The notes under the pieces were generated by a model. The model did no database searches. It was not told the origin of the DNA and was given only the letters and a program-made list of their open reading frames with translations. 64,000 bases of DNA from the NCBI GenBank assembly GCA_033439255.1, contig JAVRDV010000019.1, positions 1-64,000 of the forward strand. Direction: 5' to 3'. Source of the DNA: Hericium rajendrae. Its lineage: Eukaryota > Basidiomycota > Agaricomycetes > Russulales > Hericiaceae. The position numbers and the translations under genes are program-made. The stretch's first letter is position 1; every line of letters starts with the position of its first letter. This document shows positions 3,381 to 14,960 of this stretch, piece after piece.

Positions 3381-3408
3381 TGCTGTCGGAAAATTTGATC
3401 CGACATTA
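3381..3408 (+). repeat. left terminal inverted repeat of Plavaka element
   Basis: 28 bp, starting TGCTGTCGGAAAATTTGATC and ending CGACATTA; identical to the reverse complement of 11626-11653. It contains its own inverted repeat (TGTCGG - 10 nt - CCGACA), so each end could fold into a hairpin. Confidence 0.95.
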
Positions 3409-3756
3409 AAATCCCCTGATGTACATAATCCGATTATAATCTAGATTGACGGGATTACAAATACGATTTGAATCTCGGTGGGAGGAACTGAATATACCGG
3501 GAGTGATCATAATCCTCGGATCAGATCTCGCAACCCTCGGATAAGATCTTAATGAGGTAAGAATGTCATTAAGATGTCAGGCGCCTCAAAGTGCATCAGA
3601 TATCTGATAGAAGAGCTCGATTTTCAGCCTTCCTGTGAATGCTACTGCCTCGCGGTACTCACCACAACCCGCCACATACGTCTTCCCCTTCAGTTCCACT
3701 CACGGTGTAAGTCGCAGCGATACCACTGTCTGTAAATTCTTGTTTTTTTTTAGATC
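3409..3756. other. left subterminal region and transposase 5' leader
   Basis: AT-rich stretch with GATTATAATC and GGGATTACAAAT motifs that echo the GGTTACAATC repeats at the right end; such subterminal copies are typical transposase-binding sites in CACTA-like elements. A polypyrimidine tract ending in TTTTTTTTAG lies just before the ATG at 3757, possibly the end of a 5' UTR intron. Confidence 0.5.
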
Positions 3757-6700
3757 ATGGCGACATCCTCGAGCAAGTCTAAGCGGAAGCGTGCAGACTC
3801 GGGCGGAAACACCTGCCCGATATGCCACCAGCCAGTCAAGGCGAAAGGAATGGGCGCTCACAAAAAGGCCTGCGCGAAGAGGAAAAAACTCGCCGACGAC
3901 ATGCAGACATGGGAGGAGTCAGTAGGAAACCAGATAGAGGAGGGTGAGTTTCATTTAAATTGACTTTCTGCCAGACGTGCGCGGACGTCCAGGTGATATC
4001 TGATCCAATTGATTTACAGATACTATCCGTTCAGCTCACGGAGTTAATCGTGGGTTTGCGACGGAAAATGTCGCAGGACCTTCATTCGCGCCGGAGGTAG
4101 ATGTCGGGCCTTCGGTCATGCCGGATCCCTTCGATGCCGGTCCAGGTATGTGCTAATAGCCTATATCGTCCTGATTGCGCACTTACTTGACTTCATCACA
4201 ATCAGCCATAACAGTCGGACAGGACGAGCCAGACGTCATTGCCGAGCCAGACGTCTTGGGCCAAGACCAAGATGTACAGCTGGATGATATACGTACGATC
4301 TATCATCCCAGCAGCGGGAAAGCGACAGAGACCAAGCGCTTCGAGGAGTATGGCCGAGCTGCAGACAACGAAAAGTTAGCAGCCGAATCGCTCTCGGACC
4401 CGGAGCCTTGGAAGCCGTTCTTCCCATCGCTCCAGGACTTCAATTTCGCGGAGGTCGCTTTGGATGGAAATCTCACTCGCGATCAGTGCGAGCGCCTGAT
4501 CACCATCATCAACACTTGTGTCCAAGGCCGAGACACCTTCAACATGAAGAACTACGCGGATCTTGTGTCAATGTGGCAGCGCGCATCAGAGAAGTTGACT
4601 GGGGTGCGTCTTACTATATTGTTGCTTGCTCGAACCACTAATTTAAGGTAAAGATCTAGATCCAAACGACGACCATCACAGCGCCCTGGGATGGCGAGGA
4701 TCAAGAGTTCGAGATGCATTTTCGGCCGCTCTGGGACTGGGCGACCGATCTGTTACAGGATGCGCGACTGGCGCCCCATTTCGTATGGGATGCGCGAAAG
4801 ATGTTCAAGTTCAACGGCCAGTCATTTATTAGGTTTATTAACGAGCCGTGGACCGCAAATGACTTTTGGGATATCCAAGTAGGCATTACATGTACTCTTG
4901 TCGTCATTTTTATCTATAATTCATATTATGTTTGTACTATCAATATAGTCGAAACTCCCCGAAGGAGCGAAGCCCTTGTGTTTCCTCCTGTACGCCGACA
5001 AGTCGCAGCTTTCGTCATTTGGCACCGAAAAAGGCTATCCCGTGATAGCGCGCTGTGCAAACCTCCCGGTCGAGATTCGCAATGGAAATGGCCTTGGCGG
5101 CGGTCGCGTTGTTGGATGGCTCCCGGTTGTAAGTGAACTTCGTCGCGTCGCGTCGAAGATCGTGGTGTACTCGATTCAGAGGCTTACTTTTTTGTTTTTT
5201 TGACAGGTTCCTGAGGATGCGTCGAAGACGGGCACAAAGCACGCTAACTTCAAGCGTGTCGTCTGGCACACAGCGTTCTACGAACTCCTAGAGTCGATCG
5301 AGTTGCATTCAAAAACCGGATGCTGGTTTCAATGCGCCGATGGTGTCACTCGGCACCTTTTCCCATGCATCATTATCTTGTCTGCGGACTTAGAGGAACA
5401 GTACGTCATCTCACGCCATTCGTATTAGATAGCACTGTTGACCAAGGCTCTGGATGGTGTAGATGGATCATGGCATTGACACGAGGCTTCAAGAGCAAGC
5501 GCCCCTGTCCTGTTTGCCTGGTAAAACCGGAGGAACTTTCTGATTTAACTCAATCCTATGAGGCTCGGACTGCGACAAAGACCCAGGAAACTATCGCGAA
5601 AGCGCGTGCAGCGCGCACTCGGAAAGATGCTGAGGCAATATTGAAGGCGGAGGGCCTTCGGGATATCGATGTAAGTCCTTTTGTTAATAATAGACATTCA
5701 TTTTCGAGACTGATTTAAAGCCTTTACACTCCAGAATGTATTCTGGAAGATCAACAATTCGGATCCCTACCACGCGCTCAGCTTCGACCGCATGCACGCC
5801 TATAATGGCGGTCTCTTCGAGGATCATCTCTGGGAGATCTTTAAGGAGACTATTCAGGATATGGGCAGTGCAGCGGCTGCTGCATTCGAACAGCGGTACG
5901 TGGAGAAGCTGCCAAGACGTGATTTTCTCTCATTAAATTTCATTGAACTATTCATAGGATGGCTCGTATGCCTAGCTGGAGCGAGCTAACTCGCTTCAAG
6001 AATGTCCTGTCAGTCACGTTCTCTGACGCCGGGAAGTACGAGGATATAGGAAAGGTATGTGAACCTCCCCGCAACACCTTACGTGTTAGATGACAGTTAA
6101 CTCGATTTTGCTAGATCATTGTATTCGGTGCCTACGGCAGCATCAAACGGGACAGACACTCGCCCGCTTGGGCTTTGTTGCGCTGTCTCAGAAGTTTCAG
6201 CATACTGGACACTTACATGGCATTTGAGGTGCATACGGAAGAAACAATCGCAGCTGGTCGTCAAGAGCTGCAAAAGTTTGGAGAACTCGTGACGGTAAGT
6301 TTTAGTTGTACCTGCTATAGTTGAATTACTTGCTCACGACACCTTCAGCAATACAGAGCACTCACTCCCGCGGCAGAGAAGAACTGGGACTTTCCCAAGA
6401 TGCATTGGCATCTTCACTCCTTCGACAATGTCGAAGAGAAAGGCGTAACTCGGGTCTTCAACACCAAGCCAAACGAGAAGCTGCATGGGCCGCTCCGGAA
6501 ATTCTACTTGCGTCAGACCAACAAGAAAGATGTTGGTCCTCAGGTACGTGCAACAGACGGTTCTCAGTTCATTGCGCTAATCGTTCGACAGATTCTCAAA
6601 CTTGATCATTGCGACTTCATAGCGAAGTACTTCCGAGAATGTATGGCACACGCGGAGGAGCAGGCTGCCGCTGCCGCTGCTCGTGATGCTGACGATTCAG

Positions 6701-7465
6701 ACGAGATTAGTGCAGCCATCATGCGGAAGAAGAAGTCTCGCCGGTTCTTCGCGGAGAACATCGTCTTTGGTTCGCAAAGGCCCTCGTGTAGTTTCGAAGA
6801 CCTGGAGGCGAAGCAGTCCCCCAATCCCGAGGACACAGCCATCTTTATCCGGTTTCGAAAGCGCTTGGCAACGTGGCTCACTGCCAGCTTCCCGAACTAT
6901 GGTATCCCTCTTCCCGACGGGCCTAGAGGCGTCGTCTTTGATAAGACAGACACAGTACGTACTGATTTATTCGTTTATACTTACTACTTGCTTGCACGCA
7001 TGCTTATTGACAATATCCAACTAGATACAGGAGTACCAGCTCTTGAAGGTCACTTACGAGTCTATGGTTGACTGGAGAGCCAAGACCGACTACCTGCGCT
7101 GTAGTCCGCTGTTCCATGGTTCGCCCCGCCGCGACTTCGTTATCGTCGACACGATCAGGGGCAACATCTTTGGCCAGTTGCTCTTCATGTTTACATGCGA
7201 AGTCGGAGACACCACGTACCCCCTGGTGCTATTGCGTCCTTTCGATCCTATTCCTATAGCAGGGGCAGTCAGCCAGAAGGACCAAGAGCTAGATATCTAT
7301 CGAGTCAAGCCTCGTGAGTCTACAGAATTTTTCTTTGCAAGATCGATCATTCGCGGCGCGCTTCTCGCCGAAGCAAACCCGCAGCCGGCCAATGACCGTT
7401 GTGTGGTGGACACGCTGGATCCGGATATGTTCCTTCGACTACGGCGCATTAAAGACTTGCGATGA
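3757..7465 (+). CDS. Plavaka transposase
   Basis: Catalyses excision and integration of the element. Exons: 3757-3943, 4020-4145, 4206-4603, 4660-4878, 4949-5128, 5207-5400, 5463-5670, 5735-5895, 5958-6054, 6115-6294, 6349-6543, 6592-6954 and 7025-7465, giving 982 aa with every junction in phase. The N-terminus is basic (SKSKRKR) with a zinc-binding CxxC-x11-H-x3-C at residues 20-39. The middle has the family core (CFLLYADKSQLSSFG, CIIILSADLEEQ, RPCPVCLV, SDPYHALSFDRMHAYNGGLF, NTKPNEKLHGPLR). The C-terminal part (LFGQ-like, STEFFFARSIIRGALL) also fits. Acidic residues in SADLEEQ and around DRMHAY are candidates for the RNase-H-fold active site. For the last intron, acceptors at 7025 and 7031 both keep frame. 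The family call comes from remembered motif patterns, not a search. Confidence 0.88.
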
Positions 7466-7609
7466 TGCTTTCAGAGTCCAATGCATGTTTTATCATCACT
7501 CGTGACATTAGCTGCTTACTTTGCTTGAATTTTAGTTGTCGTTGATTACTCATTTGCAGCCCCGTGAGCCAGTCAGACCTGCTTGTGCTCATATTCAGAC
7601 GGCGCGCTC

Positions 7610-8520
7610 TATCTCAGACCAGGACGGGTCAACGTGCCTCCGTGGAGGCATGCAGATATTCGTCAAGACCTTTGCGCCCGACGACAAGCGTGGACTGGCG
7701 CACCTCTGCGGAGGCATGCAGATCCTCATCGAGATCCTTGCGCTTGACAACCAGAACGGGTCGACGTGCCTCCATAGCGGTATGCAGATCTTTGTACTCA
7801 TTAACCAGGACGGGTCAGTGCGCCTCTGTGGAGGCATGCAGATCTTCGTCAAGATCCTTGTGCCCAACAACCACGACAGGTCGGCGTGCCTCCGTAGAGG
7901 CATGCAGATCTTCGTCAAGATCTCCGCATCCGACGCCAAACATGAACTGGCGTGCATCCGTGACGGTATGCAGATCTTCGTTGAGACTCTTTACTAAATG
8001 CGCTCGACGACCAGGACGGGTCGACGCGCCTCCATGGCGGTATGCAGATCTTCGTCAAAATCCCTGCGCTCAACAACCACGACGGGTCGGCGTGCCTCCG
8101 TAGAGGCATGCAGATCTTCGTCAAGATCTCTGCACCCGATAACGAACATGGACTGGCATGCCTCCGTGACGGTATGCAGATCTTCGTTAAGACTCTTTAC
8201 TAAATGCGCTCAACAGTCGACATGCCTCCATGGCGGTATGCAGATCTTCGTCAAGATCCCTGCGCTCAACAACCACGACGGGCCGGTGTGCCTCCGTGGA
8301 GGCATGCAGATCTTTGTCAAGACCTTGCGCTCAGGTCGGCGCAATGCAGATGTTCGTCAAAATCTGTGCGCTCGACGACCAGGATGCCTCCGCGGTAGCA
8401 TGCAAATCTTTGTTCAGATCTTCGCTCACACTATCAATACCGAACAGGACGATAAGGCGAAGACCCAGGACAAGGTCTAGATGCTGCAGCTCCATGAAGG
8501 TATGCAGATTTTCATGAAGA
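7610..8520 (+). repeat. minisatellite encoding the polyubiquitin junction, 14 copies
   Basis: Tandem units, mostly 66 bp, each centred on a variant of GGCATGCAGATCTTCGTCAA. ATGCAG-type cores start at 7650, 7716, 7782, 7836, 7902, 7968, 8042, 8108, 8174, 8238, 8304, 8344, 8400 and 8502. Read on the + strand, the best copies give CLRGGMQIFVKT, which equals the end of one ubiquitin (LRGG) joined to the start of the next (MQIFVKT). Between cores lies a variable stretch such as LAPDDQDGSTCL. Reading stays open through the first six copies (7536-7997), then shifts, so the array as a whole is not one protein. Two longer blocks (from about 7960 and about 8166) repeat the phrase TTTACTAAATGCGCTC, which suggests higher-order duplication. 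Confidence 0.85.
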
Positions 8521-9048
8521 TCTTACACTCGCCGTCAAGCCCATCTAACGGACAACGCTCCGACATAGTGATTGAACTACCTCATCGCCCACACGCTCGA
8601 TTGCATGCGACATCAGTCTCTTGACAGGAAGCCTATATATGTAAGTGCTCCCTCGAGTAATTGACATGTTTTATACGTCTAACTAATGCACGAAATGCAT
8701 TTCGCTTCCCACAGGAAGTCGTAACGACTCAAATTCAATTGGGGGCTGCGCGCCTCAAGTCAGAGATGATCAAAGAAGCATGATCGTGGCTCCTTTCTAT
8801 GAGATGCGTAATTGGCCTGCCGGTTTGTTCGCTGAATCCTCATGGTATCAGTGCTCACAACCTTGTTTGTTTTCTTATTGTAGACGTACGACTTACACAG
8901 GCGGCGCCGGAACTCATTTTAGCAGTGTTGAGCAGACGCTCGTCTAACTATCAGTATATAAGCACTCGCGTGAGTCGGCTTCCAACTGCAGGATCCTTCC
9001 ATGCCTCTCATCCCTTTACATCTGATTCACTTTACCTTCGAATCGCTC
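8521..9048. other. spacer between the repeat array and the second transposon gene
   Basis: No gene seen. Holds GTAAGT...CCACAG-like splice signals (8641-8715), which could form a 5' UTR intron, and the promoter of the downstream gene. Confidence 0.4.
8955..8962 (+). promoter_or_regulatory. TATA box of the second transposon gene
   Basis: TATATAAG lies 94 bp before the ATG at 9049 and 46 bp before an in-frame ATG at 9001. Transcription would start near 8985-8990, leaving the 9001 ATG very close to the cap and favouring 9049. Confidence 0.5.
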
Positions 9049-10956
9049 ATGTCTTCTGAATCAGAGTCTGAGGGTCCAGAAACTTTCGAGGAAGTCCCTA
9101 TCCCTAACGACGGGGGCTCCGACGAGGACTCTGACGAGGAGCCCAACCCAAGACTTGACCCCGTTCAGCAGCTTATCGACGCGGCTCCCATCCGGATGCC
9201 GGCTGCAGGTGCGCCGAGGGATGAAGTCGACAAGGTGAGCCATGTTCCCGTCCTTGCGCGATGGCTCACTAATTCGTTACAGGCTTTGCAACTGTCTCAG
9301 CTGCGCTCTCAATCCTTGAACTCGACCCTGCGCGACTTGAAGATCAAGTACGACGAGCTACAAGTTAAGTACAAGGCTCTCGACAAGGCAACTTCGAAGA
9401 AGGGTCGTTCCATCAAGGCGAAGCAGTCTGAAATGGAGAAGGACATAAGAGAGCAAGCACAGCAGTACTGCCTTTGCATAGATCTCTTTATCAACCAAGC
9501 GCACTTCAAGAACCCGAGACCCGCAGGTGTTTTATCCACTGATATGATCCGCTTCGAGAACGAGGAGGCTGGCCGACTTGGCCAGATCGCGGAGATCTAC
9601 GAGTTCATGCCGGAGAGGCTTCACGAAGCGATGCAATTTCGTCCTGATTTTGGCAAGGTGGTGAGTGCTTCCAATGACCCTCTTGAGCGCTCGCGTTAAC
9701 GGCTACCGCGTCTTTTGAATAGTTCAACGACGGGCATAGAAAGCAGCGCTCTTCTGCCTTCAATCGCATTCGTACTATGGCTCCCGGAGTGCTCGGTCTA
9801 CAAACCGCAGACCTGCAAGATTCGGAAATGCGAGAGGCTTGCACCGAGCTGGTGAAGCGACTGGGTCGCCAAACCGTCAGCTCCACCGATAAGGGCAAGC
9901 CGATCTACTCGTATGACATCTTGCCTCCCATTCTCTTCCCTGAGTTGAAGTCTGTCCTCGCGGACGGGTCATCTAACCCCTTGGTCTTTCAGTCTGAGGT
10001 CCTTGCAAGGGTGAGTTCCTCCCTGTCAGTTTAAGTCTTATCGCTCTACTGACTCTAGTACATCATAGATTTTGCGCATCACGTTTTTCGGCCCAGGATC
10101 GCTGATCGCGCGACCGACGGTCCCGCAGTCAAAGGCCACTGTGGGTGACAAGTGGGATATTCGCGAAACCACTCCTGGGATGATCGCGTTTGCAGCCGTT
10201 GCAGTGCGCTTTCCATTCTTGATTGCGGTAGATTCCCAGCTGAGCTCTCTTTGCAAACAGGCTCGATTCATTTGCTCACACGACATTGAATTCCGCTCGC
10301 GAAAGGGAGATCACACAGGCATCGACTACAAGCACGACTTCTTGTTTTACAAGCGCATGATTCTCCATGGCATGGCCACCGGAAATCAACCGGACAAAGA
10401 TCTATTCGGATGGTTTAATGAACAGGTCGGCTTGAAACCTCGCACCCGTCCATCCACCACGCCGTCTGCACCAGCCACCGAAGCTCCCGCACGCAGTCTC
10501 AGCCCCGCGTCCCAACTATTCTCGCAGGTCATGTCGGGATTCAACCGGGCCACGACGATTCGTGGGACCGACGAGGACGAGGAGGATGAAGAGCTGTCTT
10601 ACGAAGACGTGCCAGAGGCGGGCAGATTGGCCTCGCAGGCCCCTCAGCCAGTCCCGCATGTCTCGTCGTCGCGTAGAGCCCCGGCCGTCAGCAGCAGCGC
10701 CAATGCTAGCGCCAGCACCAGCGCCAACGTCAGCGCACACAGTGACACACACTTTGTCACTGCAGCTGCAACTGCAGCATCCGCACCTGGCACCCTAGCT
10801 CAATTGGCACCTGCGACCGACGAAGAACCTCGTAGCAAGTCACGTAAGAAGGCTGGGGGGAAGCGGACAGTCCAACCGGTGCAGGACCAGCCAGTAGAGA
10901 AGCCAGCGCCGCGTGCGACACGGTCCAAGACGGCGCGCGGAGGGAAAAAGGTGTGA
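9049..10956 (+). CDS. transposon-associated accessory protein (DUF6698-like)
   Basis: Function unknown; proteins of this kind recur beside basidiomycete Plavaka/KDZ-type elements. Exons: 9049-9234, 9283-9660, 9723-10010, 10069-10203 and 10261-10956 (560 aa). The N-terminus is very acidic (MSSESESEGPETFEEV) and is followed by a coiled coil (residues about 62-120). A conserved core holds MRFEN-like, PGVLGL, ILRITFFGPGSL, TTPGMIAFAAVAARF, HTGIDYKHDFLFYK and MILHG. The C-terminus is low complexity: acidic, then Ser/Ala-rich, then basic (RSKSRKKAGGKR, RATRSKTARGGKKV), as in nuclear DNA-binding tails. Intron 10204-10260 is 57 nt and free of stops, so a retained form would add 19 residues. The DUF6698 label is from memory of the family pattern. 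An alternative start at 9001 is in frame. Confidence 0.72.
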
Positions 10957-11625
10957 TATTGACGACCATTCATCGCAGGCCTTGATAGCTAAGTACTGGT
11001 TACCTACGGAGCTCACCTTTTCTATACGATGTTAGTAGTATGGCAAGCTGGTTTTGCATTGAACTAGTCATCCAGAAATGTTTAGTGTTGCCTCTATCTC
11101 GCGAGTCAAATATGAGCCTTCATCTCAAGTTTCGGACATTGTATTGCCTTAGAATGTGTGAATAGACATTACAACCGGGTTATAATGCTTAGAAGTGGCA
11201 TATAATTTGATTTCTAACTATGTATAGTATGGCTAGCTGGTCTAGTGGTAAGTACGCATGGCAATACAACCAGGGTTATAATCTCACAGGTAAAAACCAA
11301 AAGGTGACAGGTTCGAGCCGCGCTACTAACAGTACAATAAAATAGAAATTCTAATAATAGAATCAGGGACCATGGGTAAGATCCTGGTCGACGGAATAAA
11401 ATGTTGTATCCAATCTTTTATTCTGCCTGTCGGTTACAATCTCCTAGTCACTATCTTATCTAGATTATTCCCTACATCATAAGCCTGGTTACAATCTAGA
11501 TCAAGCTCGGTTGCAACCTAGATCAAAATCAACTAATGGACGGTTACAATCACTTTGTCTTTGGTTGTAGGCGTTCTAATCTCGTCGATTAGATTTTCGG
11601 GTTGAGTTACATAAAAATCTCGTTA
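10957..11625. repeat. right subterminal region with GGTTACAATC-type repeats
   Basis: Near-copies of GGTTACAATC occur at about 11177, 11273, 11431, 11488, 11509 (GGTTGCAACC) and 11541, several followed by TAGATCAA. Clustered short repeats just inside the ends are the usual binding sites for CACTA-type transposases. Confidence 0.6.
11231..11325 (+). other. tRNA-like box A / box B pair
   Basis: TGGTCTAGTGGTA (11238-11250) matches a tRNA box A and GGTTCGAGCC (about 11310-11319) matches box B. Their spacing (about 70 nt) is long for a tRNA without a large insert, and the implied acceptor and T stems do not pair, so this is not a working tRNA. It could be a decayed SINE head or chance. Confidence 0.25.
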
Positions 11626-11653
11626 TAATGTCGGATCAAATTTTCCGACAGCA
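11626..11653 (-). repeat. right terminal inverted repeat of Plavaka element
   Basis: Reverse complement is identical over 28 bp to 3381-3408, including the internal hairpin arms TGTCGG/CCGACA. Confidence 0.95.
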
Positions 11654-11848: not shown

Positions 11849-13195
11849 TGCCTGTCTACGTAGTGCGTGCCATGGCTTTAATTTGTTGCACAATGGGCCC
11901 GCTGCGGAATACACTTTCTTGCCTCCATCCTTCCTACGCGACCTTGCGGTGTCGACTGCGCATCATGATCACAACGCTAAGCACACCCGAAATCGACATG
12001 CCCGACCATGATGATTCGGCATCAATGAAACTGCGCAGCGCTCGCTGAGCGTTAGCAATGCGGAAGGGCATGGTCAACATCCGCCTGAGACGAGCTCCTA
12101 TTTATTGGGCGGTGTGCAGGTCCTATGACAGCAACTGCAACAGCATCTCCAACGTCTACTAAACCATCCATTTCTCTCCACGCCATGAAAGTCTACTCTA
12201 TCGGCGCGTCGCGCAACATCGGCTACTTTGCGAGCGTGCGGCTCCTGGGTTTGTGTCCGAGCCTGAGTCTGTCCACCCCACCATGGCTCACCTCATCTTT
12301 TACAGAAAAAGGCCATACGGTCACTTTTCTCCTGCGCAACATCGATGCATTCGCCTATGACGCACTGATTCAGAAATATGTGCGGAGCGGCACCGCGCGC
12401 CTTGTCAAGGGCGACGCGCTGAACAAGGACGACGTTGAGCGCGGCTGGGCCGCCGCAGCCGCCGCGGGCCCGTCGGACGCAGACCCCGCCTCGCCCGCGC
12501 CCGTCGACACCCTCATCTTCTCCGTCGGTACGCACGCCCATCCAGTCACCCCTCGCGCGCCTAACGCCTCGCAGGCGGCATACCGAACTTCCGCGGCATA
12601 CATGGCTTCGTCCTCGACCCGCCCGACCTCTGCACGCACGCGCTCCTCAACGCGCTCTCCACCCTCCCGACCCCCGCGCCGCGCCTCGTCGCCCTGACGT
12701 CCACAGGCCTCTCGCCCACCGCGAGGGCGGACCTCCCGCTCGCGGTCCGCATGCTCTACCTCCTCGGGCACTCGCCGCACGCGGACAAGCAGGCCGCGGA
12801 GCGCGTGCTCGCGCGTGTGGGCGGCGTCGCGTGCGCGCCGGCCACAGAGCCCGTCACGCCGGGGCTGCTGCCTGACGGGTGGGAGGTGCACGTGCCGGCG
12901 CGCGCGGTGGAGGCGGTCGTCGTGCGGCCTGCGCTGCTGACGGACGGGGAGTGCCGCGCGGAGACGAAGGGCGCGCGTGCGGTGCGCGTGCGCGCGGAGG
13001 GCGACGCGGCGGTGAAGGGCGGGTACACAGTGAGCAGGAAGGACGTGGGGTGGTTTATTGCGGAACGCTTGCTCGGGGGCGAGTGGGAGCAGTGGAAGGG
13101 CAAGGGCGTGTCGTTGGCCTATTGAGGCGTGGGTGTTGTGTGTATGTATGTTATCCCGGGGCCCGGACCATGGACTGGCGTGTATGATACCACTG
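11849..13195 (+). repeat. left arm of inverted duplication
   Basis: Matches the reverse complement of about 13630-14960 across promoter, gene and 3' flank. Shared landmarks are CTGTCTACGTAGT, GGAATACACTT, GACTGCGCATCA, CGCTCGCTGAGCG, a CTATTTATT TATA-like box (12098), the whole three-exon gene, and a TGTGTGTATGT stretch after the stop. Divergence is visible but modest. Confidence 0.85.
12185..13125 (+). CDS. NAD(P)-binding Rossmann-fold protein, copy A
   Basis: Probable oxidoreductase-like protein of the extended SDR/NmrA type; substrate unknown. Exons 12185-12248, 12306-12527 and 12575-13125 give 278 aa. The N-terminus carries the nucleotide-binding pattern (VYSIGASRNIGYFASVRLL) followed by EKGHTVTFLLRN, as in NAD(P)-dependent epimerase-like folds. 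Later come VDTLIFSVGG, RLVALTSTGLS and a C-terminal segment rich in Arg, Ala and Glu. Exon lengths (64, 222, 551) are identical to those of the inverted copy at 13689-14626. Very GC-rich third positions. Both copies look intact. Confidence 0.8.
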
Positions 13196-13629: not shown

Positions 13630-14960
13630 CAGTAGCATCGCACGCGCTAGCCCATGGCCCGTGGTAACATACACACAATACCCGCATCTCAATATGCCAA
13701 CGACACGCCCTTGCCTTTCCACTGCTCCCACTCCCCCCCGAGCAAGCGTTCCGCAATAAACCACGCCACGTCCCTCCTGCCCACCGTGTACCCGCCCTTC
13801 ACCGGCAAATCGCCCTCCGCACGCACGCGCACGGCGCCCGCGCCCTTCGTCTCCGCGCGGCACTCCCCGTCCATTAGCAGCGCAGGGCGCACCACGACCG
13901 CATCCACCGCGTGCGCCGGCACGCGCGCCTCCCACCCGCCCGGCAGCAGCCCGGGCGCGACGGGCTCCGCGACGGGCGCGCACGCGGCGCCGCCCGCGCG
14001 CGCGAGCACGCGTTCCATGGCCTGTTTGTCTACGTGCGCCGAGTGGAAGAGGCGGTAGAGCAGGCGGATCGCGAGCGGGAGGTTGGCGCTCGAGGGGCGC
14101 GAGAGGCCCGTGCTGCTTAAGGCGACGAGGCGCGGCGCGGGGGTCGGGAGGGTGGCGAGCGTATTGAGGAGGGCGTGTGTGCAGAGGTCGGGCGGGTCGA
14201 GGATGACGCCGTGTAGGATGGAGAAGTTCGGCAGGCCGCCTGCGAGGTGTCAGGCGTGCTGCGGGGTAGGTGGGCGGGCGTACGTACCGACGGAGAAGAT
14301 GAGGGTGTCGACGGGCGCAGGCGAGGCGGGGTCCGTGTCCGATGGGCCGGGGGCGGCCGCGGCGGCCCAGCCACGCTCGACATCGTCCTTGTCCAGCGCG
14401 TCGCCCTTGACGAGGCGCACGGTGCCGCTCCGCAGATATCTCTGAATCAACGCGTCATCGGCGAATGCGTTAGTGTTGCGCAGGAGGAAGGTGACCGTGT
14501 GGCCCTTTTCTGTAACAGAACAAGGTAAGCCACGGTGCGGGTGGACAGACTCGGACACAAACCCAGGAGCCGCACACTGGCGAAGTAGCCAATGTTGCGC
14601 GACGCGCCAATGGAGTAGACCTTCATGATATGGAGAAAAGTGGATGGATTGGGGGGCGTTGTGGGTGATGTTGCTGTCATAGCACCTGGAGACTGCTCAA
14701 TAAATAGGTGCTCGTTTCAGGCATGCACGTTTATGCTGTCCGACCTACACACTGATAGCGCTCAGCGAGCGCCCGCGCAGTCTCGTTGACGCCGAATCGT
14801 TGTGGATCCTGCATGTCATTTTCGGTGTGCGTTAGCGTTGTGATGCGCAGTCAATATCGCAACGCCACGTAGGATGGATGGATGGACGGAAGTGTATTCC
14901 GTAGCGATCCCACTGAAACAAAGAGGTGGCACGTACAGTACGTACTACGTAGACAGACGC
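13630..14960 (-). repeat. right arm of inverted duplication
   Basis: Reverse-complement counterpart of 11849-13195, in the same internal order. Small indels in the promoter region separate the arms, while all exon lengths are conserved. Confidence 0.85.
13689..14626 (-). CDS. NAD(P)-binding Rossmann-fold protein, copy B
   Basis: Inverted paralogue of the gene at 12185-13125, 278 aa, exons 14626-14563, 14509-14288 and 14239-13689. Same Rossmann start (VYSIGASRNIGYFASVRLL). Differences are scattered and mostly conservative (AFAYDALIQKYV against AFADDALIQRYL; GIPNFRGIHGFVLD against GLPNFSILHGVILD), with no stop or shift, so both copies appear under coding constraint. The genes face each other tail to tail and each has its own promoter arm. 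Confidence 0.8.

Follow-up and report, generated by a model that had tools for sequence, protein, structure and literature searches.

A minisatellite of polyubiquitin junctions in a Plavaka-type transposon of Hericium rajendrae, very probably the remains of captured host DNA

In the basidiomycete Hericium rajendrae, a tandem array lying between the two genes of a DNA transposon very probably represents the remains of an internal fragment of a polyubiquitin gene that was captured by the element, amplified there, and is now carried, most likely, as inert cargo. The array was found in a window of 64,000 nucleotides at the start of contig 19 (C19) of a 46.8-Mb genome assembled in 19 contigs, and the evidence on its origin comes from this one genome, in which four sister elements (the window copy in C19 and those designated C3, C8 and C9) and a remote relative, C16, were compared. 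The case is one of ordinary gene capture by a transposon, with an unusual afterlife of the captured DNA as a minisatellite.

The transposon measures 8,267 bp (3384-11650, plus strand), its limits being given by inverted repeats, ends and target duplication and by alignment with the C3 copy. An inverted-repeat search returned two arms (3381-3411 and 11623-11653) that are 97% complementary and whose outermost bases belong to the target duplication; the terminal repeats themselves, TGTCGG... on the left (3384-3411, plus strand) and ...CCGACA on the right (11623-11650, minus strand), are flanked by a 2-bp duplication, GC (3382-3383 and 11651-11652). The same TGTCGG..CCGACA termini are present in the sisters, with the duplications CG in C3, TA in C8 and TT in C9, and PlavakaA (CMCT clade) is defined, as outlined in PMC12730594, by 5'-TGT..ACA-3' termini and 2-bp target duplications. 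All four elements contain sequence of a transposase gene. In the window copy the gene occupies 4175-7465 (plus strand) as several open frames, and its assignment to the Plavaka type draws on hits below the Pfam cut-off and on the exons of the C8 sister: against the Plavaka transposase domain (PF18759, cut-off 26.3 bits), single exons of the window copy score 21.6 and 15.9 bits and C8 exons 30.4 and 27.7 bits, and two C9 frames scanned for the domain gave no match. A genome-wide Pfam search returned at least 132 exon-level matches to Plavaka transposases, many of them with stops, and the four elements are absent among the 132 matches listed. By this measure the transposases of the four elements are divergent. 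The second gene (9001-10956, plus strand) was also delimited from open frames, and its 3' frame (10072-10956) is DUF6698-like, at 23.1 bits just below the curated cut-off of 23.7; a literature search for DUF6698 gave nothing. The stretch 8540-9000 finds no matches in the genome other than itself and the C3 copy. Outside the element, frames on its left (878-2857) contain a stretch that by eye resembles a response-regulator receiver domain, and similar opposed frames just to its right (12751-13125 on the plus and 13689-14018 on the minus strand) have, again by eye, the look of an inverted gene duplication.

Between the transposase gene and the second gene lies the ubiquitin-junction array (7628-8547, plus strand), recognised from TRF, junction anchors and comparison of the unit cores. 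Minisatellites are head-to-tail arrays of units of about 10-100 bp, and the period here is 66 bp. Fourteen junction anchors mark fourteen units, and seven of the thirteen spacings are exactly 66 bp (the remaining six are 54, 74, 64, 40, 56 and 102 bp), in agreement with the original prediction of fourteen units mostly 66 bp apart; the array that it placed at 7610-8520 is real and extends slightly past that right end. The 66-bp period was reported by TRF across 7618-8332 (10.9 copies), together with a higher-order repeat of 206 bp, or three units, present in 2.6 copies (7803-8322, plus strand). Each unit contains a version of CTCCGTGGAGGCATGCAGATCTTCGTCAAGA, reading LRGG-MQIFVK in one frame, so that the predicted coding of the junction, LRGG-MQIFVKT, is borne out, as is the open frame proposed for the first six copies (7536-7997, plus strand), which has a TTG start, has its first ATG at the first MQIFVKT and ends at a stop after six units. 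Because both this array and that of the C3 sister are interrupted by stops and frameshifts, it is unlikely that the array as a whole is coding today or yields a peptide. No Rfam family matched at the gathering threshold over 7400-9000.

The derivation of the units from ubiquitin can be followed at the DNA level. A codon-degenerate pattern of the junction has 20 exact matches in the 46.8-Mb genome, all of them in ubiquitin loci (four in C1, five in C14 and two in C8) or in the two arrays (four in C3 and five in C19), and the reversed control pattern has none in the same genome. When the 26 unit cores (14 from the window element and 12 from C3) are compared with the ubiquitin junctions of the host and of C8, 25 agree with one of them over at least 26 of 36 positions and the poorest over 24, whereas 23 of 36 is the highest value among 103,928 background 36-mers from both strands of the window between 12001 and 64000; the nucleotide similarity between unit and host ubiquitin gene on which the original prediction depended thus exists and is far above the chance background. 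Moreover, the 102-bp unit (8378-8479, plus strand) keeps a relic of the ubiquitin interior, 27 bp long (8449-8475) and identical to the host gene at 25 positions, and its spacer scores 61 against ubiquitin, compared with 33.9 +/- 3.7 after shuffling (0 of 200 shuffles as good). Taken one by one, the 20 short spacers are mostly unremarkable, two of them reaching the level of 1 in 200 shuffles, and the summed score of the 21 spacers, the long one included, is 544 against at most 522.6 in 200 shuffled sums, the units in this sum not being independent of each other. The idea that the DGST-C-LRGG preceding the junction is ESTLHLVLRLRGG with an internal loss is a conjecture that the short spacers do not bear out individually, and only the 102-bp unit is clearly ubiquitin on its own. 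A chance or convergent origin, in which an unrelated minisatellite would happen to encode LRGG-MQIFVKT, fits the limits of this similarity, as it is clear in the short units over about 36 bp only and the spacers are not clearly ubiquitin; it is hardly credible in view of the background maximum of 23 of 36 in 103,928 windows, and it is contradicted by the interior relic (25 of 27) and by the ubiquitin repeats that occupy the corresponding slot of C8. The donor of the C19 ubiquitin is not singled out, because the cores fit C1, C14 and C8 about equally, with mean matches of 28.5, 28.2 and 27.7 of 36 and no separation among them. The C14 locus (L047:4474-5956, corresponding to C14:305973-307455, minus strand) is another polyubiquitin locus of the host. 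Five of its six units code for a variant ubiquitin (S20A, N25A, A28T, Q31T, R54H, S57A) with all lysines kept, the first unit having A28T only.

When the last transposase exon was used as query, the sister elements were recovered at identities of 87% (C3), 66% (C8) and 61% (C9), and the remote C16 at 30%. The C3 element (L019:589-8795) can be aligned with the window copy over its length at 80-81% identity, and its slot between the two genes is likewise filled by an array, here of 12 units. In the C8 element (L045/L046:1947-10635), the slot is occupied by a decaying polyubiquitin fragment that aligns with the host C1 polyubiquitin gene over 904-922 bp (alignment columns) at 78% identity; in its present state the match starts inside a unit, and the ubiquitin loci are its sole matches in the genome. 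Within the fragment lies an intron whose sequence agrees with host polyubiquitin intron 3 at 40 of 47 positions, a score equalled by 0 of 500 shuffles. The C8 intron also occurs as a shorter duplicate, which likewise beats all 500 shuffles, and host introns 1, 2 and 4 are not outstanding, 39 to 493 of 500 shuffles being as good. Because of the match to host intron 3, it was genomic DNA that the C8 element took up. The capture of polyubiquitin DNA is therefore directly visible in C8, and we infer it for the window copy; the ubiquitin of the C8 slot with its host intron, the similarity of the core DNA and the 27-bp relic together support the original proposal, in which a captured piece was amplified in tandem between the two genes. 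Differences among the duplicated ubiquitin units of C8 mostly change amino acids (9 of 14 and 9 of 12 nucleotide differences), as in unconstrained DNA. In comparison with host units, C8 unit 2 has 18-23 nucleotide changes in codons whose amino acid differs and 17-25 that are silent; the corresponding numbers for C8 unit 1 are 3-4 and 27-39. Unit 1 (L045:6624-6851) is nearly intact, with a 96% identical protein, and its neighbours are decaying; this state is compatible with constraint, with exchange with the host gene, or with a source unit that had already diverged silently when it was captured.

The C9 element (L049/L057:2138-11035) contains neither ubiquitin nor a junction array, and in its slot (L049:6430-7927) a cyclin-type piece directly abuts a PUF4-like piece. 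The cyclin-type piece (905 bp) is 92% identical to C5:749236-750144 and 87% to C1:3755226-3756130. DNA of this type is dispersed in the genome at 70-92% identity, in C5 (749236), C1 (3755226), three places in C2, C18, C4 and C15. At the C1 locus a frame scores 30.9 bits for Cyclin_N (cut-off 23), and no Pfam match came from the frame scanned in the C9 piece. The PUF piece is 85% identical to C1:3850726-3851307, and its nearest solved structure is PUF4. Given the arrays of C3 and C19, the ubiquitin of C8 and the cyclin-type and PUF pieces of C9, the four close elements thus all appear to hold DNA shared with host genes in one slot. In the remote C16, for which element ends were not found, no host-gene cargo was recognised: a scan of seven frames from its gap and second gene found DUF6698 alone and no ubiquitin-like motif, the second-gene frame scoring 19.4 bits against DUF6698 in one scan and 26.9 bits in another. 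This DUF6698-like gene lies downstream of the transposase (L072:259-678, corresponding to C16:177158-177577, minus strand), and since even this remote relative has it, the pairing of a transposase with a DUF6698-like gene may be general in the lineage. A search of viral_contigs for relatives gave one pattern match, none being confirmed.

The number of captures is a separate matter. There is somewhat less than an even chance that C8 and the ancestor of C3 and C19 captured ubiquitin separately, or that exchange with the host gene overwrote the cargo of C8 at a later time. The C8 intron still shares 40 of 47 positions with host intron 3, yet C8 and C19 differ at 61-78% of their shared four-fold sites, and the slot evidently accepts different cargo, as in C9, all of which favours independent events, whereas the same slot and the same donor family in three of the four elements are most simply explained by one capture. 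Four-fold site differences amount to 0.61-0.78 between the genes of C19 and C8 and to 0.20-0.31 between those of C19 and C3; between C8 unit 1 and the host ubiquitin units they amount to 0.47-0.71, which, with 0.31-0.79 among the host units themselves, does not allow the dates to be ranked. Dating by four-fold sites was dropped, the C8 comparisons being too far apart, and with distances so large the captures related to C8 are neither datable nor provably single.

Within the unit, conservation is uneven. Among the 20 full-length units of C19 and C3 (of 24 units, the 4 with lengths outside 60-80 bp were excluded), 31 of 420 cells vary in the MQIFVKT segment and 156 of 590 in the spacer, a ratio of 0.28 or about 3.6 times less variation, and the RLRGG part has 56 mismatches in 300. 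As the anchor sits within the MQIFVKT segment and favours it, uniform mutation was run through the same pipeline, and 60 arrays simulated in this way (a star simulation without shared ancestry) gave ratios of 0.66-1.06, with a mean of 0.86. On the unit tree, changes per site are 0.78 for MQIFVK, 2.47 for RLRGG and 3.07 for the spacer. Uniform neutral decay does not account for the ratio of 0.28 between core and spacer. In the 26 cores, silent changes number 57 of 141 (expected fraction 0.26), and the third-position excess has p = 0.017 at non-CpG sites and p = 0.17, not significant, over all core sites; silent variety inherited from the ubiquitin units would equally produce such an excess. A conserved hairpin was considered and rejected: the core has two near-palindromes, but four of the six array units folded were no better than shuffles (the other two had z of -3.60 and -2.81), nor were four ubiquitin junctions, two from the host and two from C8. 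As no hairpin is conserved, none explains the conservation of MQIFVKT.

The repeated ATGCAGATCTTCGTCAAGA segment could instead be kept by selection, as a binding site, an RNA motif or a translated peptide with ubiquitin ends, and the observed ratio outside the simulated range, the few changes on the unit tree and the third-position excess at non-CpG sites are all consistent with this. We consider it unlikely, since stops and frameshifts are present in both arrays, the third-position excess loses significance over all core sites, the anchor in the segment by itself gives some of the bias (as the simulated mean indicates), C9 lives without such an array, and two of six units folding better than shuffles do not make a conserved hairpin. 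It is likewise improbable that the array is a working tandem element of the transposon's own, with ATGCAGATCTTCGTCAAGA under selection for a ubiquitin-end peptide or for protein or RNA binding at repeated sites, and with the slot serving as a standing capture site in which cargo of this kind is tried out.

The preferred reading, a captured and amplified fragment that is now inert, would involve four steps. First, genomic DNA of a polyubiquitin gene, with its intron, would have been taken up by a PlavakaA-type element and placed between the transposase and the second gene, an uptake evident in the C8 sister and presumed in the window copy. Second, slippage or unequal exchange, to which a cargo already arranged in tandem would lend itself, would together with internal deletions have shortened the 228-bp unit to some 66 bp, leaving the stretch where two ubiquitins join. 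Third, the short unit would have multiplied, probably beginning before the C3 and C19 copies separated, because the array occupies the same slot in both; a subsequent duplication of a three-unit block in C19 is visible in the 206-bp repeat. Finally, the array was broken by stops and frameshifts, and it would now most likely be inert filler of the intergenic slot. No present function is expected, and the chance of a use for the conserved segment is small. The points that stand against this reading are the short spacers without clear individual homology, the ratio of 0.28, the silent excess of the core, which is readable as constraint, and the near-intact C8 unit 1.

Several fates of captured host DNA are therefore found in four sisters of one genome: a decaying, intron-bearing fragment, a two-piece chimera and two copies worn to minisatellites. 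Should other species show the same, this Plavaka lineage would have a gap permissive for capture between the transposase and the second gene, in elements that have kept a transposase gene, and tandem genes that code for protein would be able to seed minisatellites. The array is like a polyubiquitin gene, such as the host gene C1, in its head-to-tail repeats joined as RLRGG-MQIFVKT, and unlike it in having units of about 22 codons instead of 76 and broken frames; intact 76-residue units in one frame occur neither in the window array nor in the C8 fragment, which has an internal stop and frame breaks.

Among the titles and abstract openings listed in a literature search, no report was found of ubiquitin carried by Plavaka, of a fungal DNA transposon with captured ubiquitin, or of a ubiquitin-derived minisatellite. 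The elements described here are like PlavakaA, as outlined in PMC12730594, in their TGT..ACA ends, 2-bp target duplications and Plavaka-type transposase, for which the C8 exons exceed the Pfam cut-off. The same paper describes a TET/JBP gene in other Plavaka elements, PlavakaB, whereas the cargo here consists of polyubiquitin, cyclin-type and PUF fragments, an intact cargo gene is present in none of the four elements, and in two of them the cargo is worn to a tandem array. By analogy, the nearest parallel in working is offered by the Pack-TYPE elements of plants, including Pack-CACTA, which are non-autonomous by definition in the available text of PMC8903248, where fungi are not mentioned. As in Pack-TYPE elements, pieces of host genes, in some cases derived from two or more loci, lie inside the terminal repeats of a cut-and-paste transposon (ubiquitin with its intron in C8, PUF and cyclin-type pieces in C9, and the worn array in the window copy); unlike in the Pack-TYPE elements of that text, the captured DNA here adjoins the element's own transposase gene.
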